Both the position numbers and the translations under genes were made by a program. Shown here in pieces: positions 40,791-44,327 of a stretch of DNA of 64,000 nucleotides. How positions within the stretch are numbered: position 1 is the first letter of the stretch; each line of letters starts with the position of its first letter. The notes under the pieces were generated by a model that was not told where the DNA came from, searched no databases, and saw nothing but the letters and a program-made list of their open reading frames with translations. The stretch comes from Alphaproteobacteria bacterium (GTDB lineage Bacteria > Pseudomonadota > Alphaproteobacteria > UBA2966): assembly GCA_018654745.1 (NCBI GenBank), contig JABILA010000105.1:62001-126000 (forward strand). Direction: 5' to 3'.

Positions 40791-41773
40791 CTGATACCGG
40801 GCATAAATCAGCAGCAGGCAAACCACGCCGGGTTCTGATTGTCTTCAACCCGATTGCCGGGCGCAGGCGGAAGCGTTTGTTCGCGCAAACGGTAGATGCC
40901 CTGAATGCACGGGGGTGTGTGCTTGATGTTCAGGTGACGCAAGGGCCGGGCGATGCTGTGCGCATATCACGCGAGGGTGTCGCCGCAGACAAGTTTGATG
41001 TCATCGTTGCCGCCGGAGGTGACGGCACCATCAACGAAGTTATTCAGGGCATGACCTGCACAGGCGAGGGGGAAGCCGGGAATGCGGCCAGTACCAACAG
41101 TATGTATGACGGCCCCGCCTTTGCCACCATTCCCTTTGGCACGGTCAATGTTCTGGCCCTGGATATCGGTCTGGCGCAAAAGGCCGAAGCCATGGCAGAC
41201 ACCATCGCCGGTGAAGCTTATGTGGCGGCAACTGTTGGTCTGGCCCAAAATAAAAATCTGCAACGCACCTTTTTGATTACGGCTGGTGTCGGTCTGGATT
41301 CTGCCGCCGTCAAATATCTCTCACCCCGTCTGAAACGAATATTCAGCTGGGGGGCCTATATCTTTTCCATGATCCTGGCCCTGATCCGCGATGGCGATGT
41401 CTCGCTGGAGGCTGATATCGACGGCGATGTCGTCAGGGGCTCCACCATCATCATCACCAATGTCAGCCGCTTCGGCGGCCCCCACGTTGTCGCCCCTGAC
41501 GCTCGTGTTGAAGACGACAACCTGACAGTTCTGGTGGCGCTTGGCCTGGGCCGTAAAAACCTGGTGCGATATGGTCTTGCTTTCGCGCTTGGCCGGGTCC
41601 CCAAGATCAACGATATCCTCGTGCGGGATTTCACCGAAGTCCGCGTGACCTCCCCGGCTGGCTACCCCATCCAGATCGACGGCGACGGCTATGGCACAGT
41701 CCCGGTCACTTTCCGCACGGCACCCGCGAAGTTACGATTGCTGGTGCCGGAGGGTTATGTGACGGGAGTATAA
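40787..41773 (+). CDS. Diacylglycerol/sphingosine kinase-family (YegS/DAGK) lipid kinase, likely CTG start
   Basis: I place the start at a CTG (40787) that overlaps the previous gene's TGA (CTGA), giving 328 residues. This frame is open only from 40763 and has no ATG or GTG before the conserved N-terminal strand VLIVFNPIAGRRRKRL. The first TTG (40877) would delete that strand. The GGDGTINEV nucleotide loop is at residues 77-84, and PFGTVNVLALDIG follows (GT-x-N motif). The family phosphorylates diacylglycerol, sphingoid bases or related lipids with ATP at the membrane. GGGTG lies about 8 bp before the CTG. Protein N-terminal data would settle the start. Confidence 0.8.
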   Translation: MTDTGHKSAAGKPRRVLIVFNPIAGRRRKRLFAQTVDALNARGCVLDVQVTQGPGDAVRISREGVAADKFDVIVAAGGDGTINEVIQGMTCTGEGEAGNAASTNSMYDGPAFATIPFGTVNVLALDIGLAQKAEAMADTIAGEAYVAATVGLAQNKNLQRTFLITAGVGLDSAAVKYLSPRLKRIFSWGAYIFSMILALIRDGDVSLEADIDGDVVRGSTIIITNVSRFGGPHVVAPDARVEDDNLTVLVALGLGRKNLVRYGLAFALGRVPKINDILVRDFTEVRVTSPAGYPIQIDGDGYGTVPVTFRTAPAKLRLLVPEGYVTGV

Positions 41774-41777
41774 AATT

Positions 41778-42506
41778 ATGGCTATAGAACGTACTGGAGC
41801 GGAGCGCATGGACGATATTTCGTCAAAGTTCATGCGGTCGTTAAGTGAAATTCCCGGGTTCAAAGATTGGCAACGCCGGAACATGGATCGTACGTTGAAT
41901 TTTGACGACCTGTGGTTTTCATCTGCTACGGACACGAACCCCTCTATGTTTGAATTCAATGAAGACGTAGAAAAGCAACACAAAGTTTTGATGAATTACC
42001 TTCAATTGCGTTCCTCTGTCGAATCTTTGAAGGGCTGTGAATTCTATTTCCGGCGCTACCCATTTAATGGCCTTCCCGTTTCCAAATATGAGCATTTGCG
42101 AAATGTTTGCGAAATGTATTTCAGCTGTTTCTATAAGGTTAAAGAACGTCTGAAAAAACTTCTAAACTCAGCAAATGCTTTGAGTGACAAACACCTGATA
42201 GATATCGGCGAATTGCTTATTATGTTTCAAGGCCGATTTTCAAGAGAATTGAAACACAGAAATATTGTTCATCACCATGGAGATTTTGATGACCTTGAAA
42301 TAGATCGAATTTTCATTTTTGAAAGAGTGGTTGAGCCCGCATATCAGCAATCGAAGAATTCTTTCGCCAGCACTGAGTATCGACGCGTATCAAAGGAATG
42401 GGCGATACGTGTAAAAGAGAGTGCCCGTAGCGTGGAGGTGTTCGTTGAAGTTGTTTCAAATGTCATCGCCAACAATCTTACGGACGAGTTGACGTTAAAA
42501 TTGTGA
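41778..42506 (+). CDS. Uncharacterised protein with a HEPN-like RNIVHH motif, AT-rich
   Basis: 242 residues, ATG with GGGAG about 11 bp upstream. I do not recognise the family. The protein is charged and helical, with no signal peptide or membrane segment. Residues 104-133 and 138-161 look like long helices and end in Arg161-Asn-Ile-Val-His165-His166-His167. That pattern matches the Rx4-6H (often RN-x3-H) catalytic motif of HEPN ribonucleases. Base use differs sharply from its neighbours: 42121-42180 has 20 G+C of 60, while 41461-41520 in the kinase gene has 39 of 60. It interrupts the stretch between the lipid kinase and tldD and may be acquired. No antitoxin (MNT or other) gene is adjacent. 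The HEPN assignment is inference. Confidence 0.6.
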   Translation: MAIERTGAERMDDISSKFMRSLSEIPGFKDWQRRNMDRTLNFDDLWFSSATDTNPSMFEFNEDVEKQHKVLMNYLQLRSSVESLKGCEFYFRRYPFNGLPVSKYEHLRNVCEMYFSCFYKVKERLKKLLNSANALSDKHLIDIGELLIMFQGRFSRELKHRNIVHHHGDFDDLEIDRIFIFERVVEPAYQQSKNSFASTEYRRVSKEWAIRVKESARSVEVFVEVVSNVIANNLTDELTLKL

Positions 42507-42694
42507 CGATTTGAGGTTATTTGGGCGCAACAGACTATCCACACTTTGAACTAAGATTGCCCGAAATCCACAACAACTTATTACCAAATCACCCTTCCAG
42601 GGAGATTTGATTTCCGCTCAGGCGCCGCTGGTGGCTTTGCGCCTCAATGGCGCTGGTTACCTGTTCGTCAAATGACATTGAGAGTTGGTTTGAA

Positions 42695-44131
42695 CTACCC
42701 CGCCTCGGTACCACCCACCGTCAACTCATCAATCTTCAGCGTTGGCTGGCCGACGCCGACCGGTACGCCCTGGCCGTCTTTGCCGCAGGTGCCGACGCCG
42801 GGGTCGAGTTCCATGTCGTTGCCGATCATGCTGACCTTGGTCAGGACGTCGGGGCCGTTGCCGATTAGCGTAGCACCTTTGACGGCGGCGCCGATTTTGC
42901 CGTCTTCGATCTGATAGGCCTCGGTGCAGGTGAAGACGAACTTGCCGCTGGTGATGTCGACCTGGCCGCCGCCAAAGTTCACGGCGTACAAACCGTTCTT
43001 GACGGATTTGATAATTTCTTCCGGGTCGCGGTCACCATTTTCCATCACGGTATTGGTCATGCGCGGGATCGGCATGTGGGCATAATCCTGGCGGCGACCG
43101 TTGCCGGGGGGGGCGACACCCATCAGGCGGGAATTCAGGCGGTCCTGCATATAACCTTTGAGGATACCGTCTTCGATTAACACAGTGCGGCTGGTGGGCG
43201 TGCCTTCATCGTCGATACTTAAACTGCCGCGCCGGTCCATCAGGGTACCATCGTCGACAACGGTTACGCCGGGGGAGGCGACGCGCTGGCCCAGCAATTC
43301 AGAAAAGGCACTGGTCTTTTTGCGATTGAAATCACCTTCCAGGCCGTGGCCGATGGCTTCGTGCAACAATATGCCAGGCCAGCCAGGGCCGAGGACAACG
43401 GGCACTGTACCAGCCGGGGCAGGCACCGAGGACAGGTTCACATCGGCCTGGCGCATGGCTTCATCAATGGCGGCTTTCCAGGATTCAGGCTTGAGGTAAT
43501 CGGCATAGAGCGTTCGGCCACCAGTGCCAAAACTGCCGGTTTCCTGGCGGTCACCTTCACCCATCACAATCGAGACATTGAAGCGCACCAGGGGGCGGAC
43601 ATCACCGGCCCGCATGCCATCAGAGCGCAGGATTTCGACCACCTGCCATGATCCGGCAAGGGACGCAGACACCTGGCGTACGCGATCATCACGGCCACGC
43701 GCATAGGCGTCGATCTCTTCCAGCAGTTTGACCTTTTCTTCAAAAGGCACATCGTTCAGGGGATTATCGTCGATATATAAAGACTGGTTCGTGCCCGTCG
43801 GGCCATCGGCCATGGTGCCGGAGCGACCCTGGCGAACAGATTGCACCGTGTCCGAAGCCCGCTTGATGGCGGCTTCTGACAGTTCCGAGGCATGGGCATA
43901 GCCGGTTGATTCGTCTGAAACTGCCCGCAGGCCAAAGCCCTGGGAGGTGTCGAAACTGGCCGATTTAAGACGTCCATCGTCCCAGGCCAGGGCCTCGGAT
44001 TGTTTGTATTCCATGAACAACTCGCCGTCGTCGCAGCCGTCCAGGGCACCATCGACCAGGGTCTGAACCTTGTTCCGATCCAGTCCGGCGCGGGTGAACA
44101 GCATTTCTTCGGCTTTGGCAGTGTCGCTCAT
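42695..44131 (-). CDS. tldD: Metalloprotease TldD
   Basis: 478 residues from the ATG at 44131, with GGAGAC upstream. The zinc-binding motif HEAIGHGLEGD (HExxxH) is intact. The C-terminal domain has MPIPRMTNTVMENGDRDPEEIIKSVKNGLYAVNFGGGQVDITSGKFVFTCTEAYQIEDGKI, characteristic of TldD. TldD acts with TldE/PmbA in proteolysis of small peptides and antitoxins such as CcdA. It is divergent from the oxidase operon; the partner pmbA is not in this window. The 188-bp gap 42507-42694 on its 3' side shows no clear terminator. Confidence 0.93.
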   Translation of the reverse strand: MSDTAKAEEMLFTRAGLDRNKVQTLVDGALDGCDDGELFMEYKQSEALAWDDGRLKSASFDTSQGFGLRAVSDESTGYAHASELSEAAIKRASDTVQSVRQGRSGTMADGPTGTNQSLYIDDNPLNDVPFEEKVKLLEEIDAYARGRDDRVRQVSASLAGSWQVVEILRSDGMRAGDVRPLVRFNVSIVMGEGDRQETGSFGTGGRTLYADYLKPESWKAAIDEAMRQADVNLSSVPAPAGTVPVVLGPGWPGILLHEAIGHGLEGDFNRKKTSAFSELLGQRVASPGVTVVDDGTLMDRRGSLSIDDEGTPTSRTVLIEDGILKGYMQDRLNSRLMGVAPPGNGRRQDYAHMPIPRMTNTVMENGDRDPEEIIKSVKNGLYAVNFGGGQVDITSGKFVFTCTEAYQIEDGKIGAAVKGATLIGNGPDVLTKVSMIGNDMELDPGVGTCGKDGQGVPVGVGQPTLKIDELTVGGTEAG

Positions 44132-44312
44132 TATTGTCTCCAGAGACTTCGGGGGATAATCAAGGTGCCAGAGAATAAGCCTCTCGCGGGGTTGAGAACA
44201 GGGCAGGGTGTTATCAACTTTTGTTGAAACACCTGAGGACTGTATCACGTTGCGATGCAACGAAGATATGAGGCGAATCGGTTAAAACTGATATCGTTCT
44301 AAAGGGTTCAAG

Positions 44313-44327
44313 AGCGCATTTTGTCGC
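44313..44327 (+). promoter_or_regulatory. Degenerate RegA/RegR-like site upstream of coxB
   Basis: AGCGCATTTTGTCGC matches the RegR box GNGRCRTTNNGNCGC at 9 of 11 specified positions, with mismatches at positions 1 and 3. It lies 118 bp upstream of the second, better site. Confidence 0.35.

Follow-up and report, generated by a model that had tools for sequence, protein, structure and literature searches.

Diverse phages carry relatives of an R-x4-H protein, putatively a HEPN-like ribonuclease, encoded behind dagK on an alphaproteobacterial chromosome

Tha is described as a HEPN anti-phage RNase of a Staphylococcus aureus prophage, with the motif R265NSIMH270 and with minor tail proteins as its trigger (PMC11087260). 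According to the HEPN survey, Rx4H is the typical spacing of the motif and falls at the end of helix 3, and the residue after the arginine is polar, mostly N, D or H, which is typical and not universal (PMC3710099). P2-like phages are reported to have a defence hotspot between gpA and the portal gene gpQ (PMC9122126). Two further HEPN types bear comparison with the protein treated below: ApeA (PF18862 and PF18739), in which an N-terminal domain is fused to HEPN_Apea and which has, as our protein does, a motif of R-N-x3-H type, and the RiboL-PSP type (PF18735).

Our subject is an open reading frame at 41778-42506 on the forward strand of a 64 000-nucleotide stretch of contig JABILA010000105.1, the whole of which we call the window. 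It starts with ATG, encodes 242 aa, and stands between two genes whose names we adopt from an initial annotation of the sequence and from recall: a lipid-kinase gene, presumably dagK, upstream (40877-41773, forward strand, a minimal open frame whose true start may lie further upstream), and a convergent gene that we take to be tldD (42695-44260, reverse strand), the outer border of a variable interval. Likened by description and motif, the window gene and Tha are both single genes with Arg-Asn-x3-His (R161NIVHH166 and R265NSIMH270). Tha is phage-borne, as the relatives of the window gene are, and it lies antisense within the 80alpha operon, as the relative in genome G687 lies within its prophage. 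Tha-1 differs in its 301 aa, its C-terminal HEPN domain and its known trigger. At a probability of roughly 0.6, we read the window gene as encoding a HEPN-like RNase, a lone phage-borne abortive-infection effector of which this copy was captured on the chromosome; the remaining probability falls mainly on an accessory protein, likewise phage-borne, with a different helical fold.

Nine sequences, at 12-38% identity to the window protein, were aligned, with the broken copies from G1037 and G1211 left out. Only six residues are invariant in all nine (Y119, R124, R161, H166, D172 and W208), among them the two that form a HEPN signature Rx4-6H, here R161-x4-H166. The initial annotation had drawn attention to R161-N-I-V-H165; that string is present, but the proposed histidine is off by one, since the invariant pair is R161/H166 and position 165 is V in three of the nine members. 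The motif R161-N-I-V-H-H166 occupies 42258-42275 (forward strand, computed from the ORF start), and R-N-x-x-H-H is visible also in the two broken copies. After the arginine comes N in six members, including the window protein, and G in three; the RN-type members are 33-38% identical to the window protein, the RG-type members 12-17%. Many HEPN families, not all, have an acidic helix-2 residue in an Ex3[KR] pattern, and the window protein has E123-x3-K127, with E in that column in 6/9 members and the full Ex3K in 2/9. The G after R, the scarcity of Ex3[KR] and the broken frames in three of 11 copies, described below, speak against a HEPN RNase. Three close relatives are under purifying selection, because synonymous sites are at or near saturation and amino-acid changes are few: one close pair has dN 0.146 and dS 1.46, and the other two pairs have dN 0.15 and 0.21 with dS saturated.

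The sole Pfam match of the window protein was sub-threshold (Phage_hub_GP28, E 0.17), and NCBIfam, PHROGs and PADLOC gave none. When eight members were scanned, HEPN_Apea appeared in one (E 0.073) and HEPN_Swt1 in one (E 0.33); these mean little alone because unrelated matches of like or better E-value are scattered through the scan, each in a single member (DUF5344, Phage_hub_GP28, PsaD and SAM_SMF at 0.087-0.21), with TviE (0.0013) and three weaker ones from NCBIfam. Sequence searches of the PDB yielded nothing, or three matches at E 0.28-0.32 without meaning. The family profile was then compared by hhalign with ApeA-type HEPN (three sequences), RiboL-PSP HEPN (three), PF05168 HEPN (two, used without a clear Rx4-6H motif) and, as a four-helix control, Hpt (10), excluding L065, which overlaps L064 in sequence, and L069, which is below Pfam's cut-off. 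RiboL-PSP was the best of the three HEPN families. Its score was 26.2, a value reached by none of 200 column shuffles (mean 12.5, maximum 24.6), its R and H fell on R161 and H166, and both RN and RG occur at the motif start in it and in the new family. The match is weak all the same (reversed profile 21.4, hhalign probability 6.6%), and the eight members scanned had no match to its Pfam model, so that it may be taken as a hint in the right register and not as membership. ApeA (13.9; 65 of 200 shuffles as good), Hpt (13.3; 43 of 200) and PF05168 (12.0, without shuffles) scored at background. The 242-aa window protein, with no significant Pfam match, lacks the domain fusion that marks ApeA, while the ApeA encoded near the relative in G873 has 490 aa and its own N-terminal domain and matches both Pfam models (L050).

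The product had been expected to be mostly helical, and its prediction is almost wholly so. AlphaFold on the window sequence alone reached a pLDDT of 43, and that model was left out of fold searches; with three viral-contig relatives it gave a helical bundle (mean pLDDT 72, pTM 0.70) with helices at residues 7-23, 28-40, 62-92, 103-135, 143-153, 155-167, 173-183 and 191-241. R161-H166 lies at the end of predicted helix 155-167. The model fits the HEPN layout, with two hairpins, an insert before helix 3 and the motif at its end, which is not proof of that fold. Designed bundles and FAT domains filled the top rows of VIA-align (Z up to 9.8), and the HEPN toxin 8yuf_B came at rank 46 (Z 7.7, 118 residues, 4.1 A), within the helical-bundle background. 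Foldseek placed HEPN 4nqf at E about 1 and found nothing at E <= 0.001 in the PDB, nor was there anything at that level in the viral structure library BFVD. In the structural check suggested with the initial annotation, helix order and motif place agree with HEPN, but fold searches do not single it out. Nor does the prediction show a fold unrelated to HEPN.

Fold searches led by designed bundles and FAT domains, with no Pfam HEPN model significant and weak profile similarity to HEPN, are what a phage accessory protein of all-helical, non-HEPN fold might give, for example one for superinfection exclusion or regulation, whose R161 and H166 are kept for structure or binding and cut no RNA. We regard such a protein as unlikely, although it is the main competitor: the R-x4-H pair is invariant down to 12% identity and sits at a helix end, and the ApeA, NB-ARC and PDC-S31 neighbours of the relatives point to defence. 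A HEPN-type RNase, the class named in the initial annotation, is a putative assignment that the invariant motif and its place support, but HEPN structures stay within the helical-bundle background and the profile match is weak.

The gene had also been called an orphan, wrongly, as profile searches led to ten further loci. The first match of the window protein was in genome G687 (E 7.3e-6, 20% identity over residues 70-230); five weak matches of the same search (E 0.021-0.085) are not counted as relatives. The G687 protein led in turn to a plasmid gene of Paraburkholderia caledonica, 25% identical to it (E 5e-14), and a three-sequence profile to nine of 299 genomes of G687's family at E <= 0.01. 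We infer this family to be Burkholderiaceae, because the nearest phages of its prophages are Burkholderia phages. Around G687, two genomes were hit, G687 itself and G1211, among the 369 searched in its class. Scans of viral contigs yielded three from IMG/VR, two of which share genes with G687 and G898, and further scans yielded nothing or known loci again. By tblastn the window protein had no match among plasmids and phages; its relatives had none among phages, including the G687 protein in the phage collection, and among plasmids only the P. caledonica record or none.

Each counted once, the 11 loci are those of the window, G687, the plasmid, G873, G858, G989, G898, G1037, G1014, IMG/VR 3300013377 and G1211; the fragments in G1020 (34 residues) and G790 (which stops inside) are excluded. 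The sole match among genome contigs, in L002 (Burkholderia sp. Ax-1719), was rejected as chance, as it overlaps a longer ORF on the opposite strand, presumably for an oligoribonuclease. Three of the 11 copies have broken frames (loci L054, L058 and L047): that of G1037 is interrupted, that of G1211 is split into two ORFs, and that of G898/IMG/VR has its N-terminal part out of frame. These interruptions suggest frequent loss of the gene after integration. The literature searched gave no description of the gene family, which may be described elsewhere, and no mention of WP_114200456.

Genomic context of the relatives is the strongest evidence. Phages or prophages, of several kinds, account for five of the 11 loci. 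In G687 the prophage portal gene shares 96% identity with its counterpart in Burkholderia phage Magia; the portal of IMG/VR 3300013377 matches Rhodobacter phages at 61%; the relative in G898 adjoins a portal gene of P2 type, which matches Burkholderia phage KS14 at 70%; G873 has a GPD gene nearby, in a prophage that we take to be P2-like; and the prophage of G1037 is, to judge by the Zot and Secretin genes nearby, filamentous. One relative is plasmid-borne (P. caledonica), and that of G989 has an integrase gene 2.7 kb away. The place of the G898 relative beside the portal gene recalls the published P2 hotspot, although no gpA gene was identified at its other flank. The G873 relative differs in lying beyond a GPD gene instead, and the window copy in lying in no recognised prophage. 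Beside the G898 relative there is also a candidate phage cargo gene for a 319-aa probable membrane protein (L047:1-960), which has no PADLOC match and only a sub-threshold Pfam match.

The slot occupied in the G687 prophage is exchangeable. Its DNA matches Magia up to Magia position 43912 (85%) and resumes at 44322 (90%); between these points the antisense relative (768 bp) stands in the prophage and a different antisense gene, CPT_Magia_069, in Magia. The relative's composition is also unlike that of the phage, with a G+C of 0.47 against 0.655 around it. At all ten loci compared, L054 being left out for its broken frame, the gene has a lower G+C than the remainder of the stretch fetched.

Known or candidate defence genes are neighbours at three of the 11 loci. 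In the G873 prophage the relative and an ApeA gene are 1.8 kb apart, the relative in G858 has an NB-ARC/AlbA protein and a DUF2971 (PDC-S31) protein beside it, and that in G1014 a PDC-S31 protein. Between ApeA and the relative in G873 (L050:6712-8300) there are two ORFs, of 231 and 186 aa, with no PADLOC match, the latter ending 2 bases before the relative; they may belong to the same cargo block. The suggestion that the window protein may be an anti-phage effector is favoured by the phage carriage and defence neighbours of its relatives.

Within about 4 kb of the 11 loci (1.5 kb at G1211) no neighbour recurs but DUF2971, at two loci, so the gene presumably acts by itself or together with a host factor. 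Pairs of HEPN toxin and MNT antitoxin are reported to be common (PMC7641770), and the gene could in principle encode the toxin of such a pair, with its antitoxin adjacent or elsewhere in the genome. We think this improbable, as the DUF2971 gene, alone in recurring beside the family, is at two loci only and an adjacent MNT gene was not found. At the window copy the neighbours are dagK and tldD.

The reading frame at 41778-42506 is real and intact directly behind dagK, whose stop codon (41771-41773) is separated from it by 4 bases. A GGGAG at 41764-41768 (forward strand), within the last dagK codons and 9 bases 5' of the ATG, was read from the sequence as a possible ribosome-binding site, and a promoter scan placed no site from 41600 to the ORF start. 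Over the whole scanned stretch it returned one site, within the ORF, where shuffles gave 1.8. With the 4-base gap, the GGGAG and the empty interval upstream, the ORF is probably translated from the dagK transcript, which would make the two genes co-transcribed. The spacer between the ORF and tldD (42507-42694) holds a dispersed repeat at about 42576-42667. This is one of two distinct repeats, of about 90-100 bp each, that flank tldD, the other lying at about 44205-44301; both have many copies in the window's genome and in its congener.

The base counts first given for the region are correct (G+C 20/60 at 42121-42180 and 39/60 at 41461-41520). For the ORF as a whole, G+C is 0.414 and GC3 0.444; both are the lowest in a set of 51 window ORFs of >=150 aa that were picked mechanically so as not to overlap, and whose mean G+C is 0.549 (sd 0.028). 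Searches with the window protein matched one of 61 relatives and one of 385 genomes of the class, in each case the window's own, leaving 384 class genomes without a match; the nine-sequence profile likewise found only the window's own among the 385. The congener G001, which is 98% complete, has no match to the window protein. A vertically inherited gene of the lineage, AT-rich by chance, would explain why the frame is intact directly behind dagK. It would have to be reconciled with presence in a single class genome by protein and by profile, with the lowest G+C of the 51 ORFs, and with relatives, 33-38% identical, that sit on a viral contig and in a different family of the same phylum; within the sampled genomes it is refuted, and we give it next to no weight. 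Horizontal acquisition, proposed from the first, is well supported by base composition, by absence from the congener and the 384 class genomes, and by the occurrence of relatives in phages and on a plasmid; nor is this a gene conserved across the order. The best reading of the window gene is a chromosomal capture immediately behind dagK.

The backbone around the gene had been described as conserved, and this is right for one side of tldD. The five family genomes read at tldD (G001, G002, G003, G004 and G006) all have cox2 beside it, but on the dagK side the congener G001 has other cargo ORFs instead of the HEPN-like gene. In G001 dagK is close to the end of one contig and tldD close to the end of another, and by eye these contig ends have about 135 bases in common; in G003, G004 and G006 the two genes are on separate contigs. 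Behind the dagK of G001 (L024:5439-6590 and L013:224-1995) come an ORF of 383 aa (G+C 0.45, no PADLOC match) and then ORFs of 273 and 311 aa, the latter two presumably signal-peptidase-like membrane proteins from their appearance.

On contig C157 of G001 there is a 103-bp copy of the tldD 3' end (L013:2131-2233), about 1.3 kb from tldD itself (L013:3532-4968) and 92% identical to it over 89 bp. An ORF pair that we take to be response-regulator-like and Hpt-like lies between the two. Insertion or rearrangement at the end of tldD would leave such a copy behind, and we considered on this account an element that inserts at the 3' end of tldD. In the window, a 31-base segment of this 3' end does not occur a second time with <=3 mismatches allowed, and the literature searched contains no report of tldD as an insertion site.

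If the HEPN-like reading is right, the small all-helical ribonuclease would work alone as an abortive-infection effector. Its usual home would be phage genomes, as an accessory (moron) gene guarding the lysogen against other phages. Dimerisation of the protein by way of its helical bundle would bring R161 and H166 from each subunit to one common cleft, and the dimer would stay idle until it senses a component of an infecting phage, perhaps by the N-terminal ~60 residues or by the long C-terminal helix. It would then cut RNA in a metal-independent reaction, with the ribose 2'-OH as the attacking group, and growth would halt before phage release. A bolder version, which we hold tentatively and at somewhat short of even chances, is that these genes form a new family of single-gene abortive-infection systems, a HEPN lineage of its own with a built-in sensor, that is carried in P2-like, other tailed and filamentous prophages and is absent from current defence catalogues, the window copy being a capture that taps the dagK transcript with no mobile element remaining.

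The HEPN-like reading, if right, would add a compact defence family of HEPN type that spans filamentous and tailed prophages and for which searches of Pfam, NCBIfam, PHROGs and PADLOC turned up no model. How a HEPN RNase, otherwise silent, senses a phage is most simply asked in systems of one gene, and slot exchange as seen with Magia supplies matched phages that differ in whether they carry the gene. In the window's own organism, a phage cargo gene would appear to have settled in the chromosome by direct coupling to a host gene.
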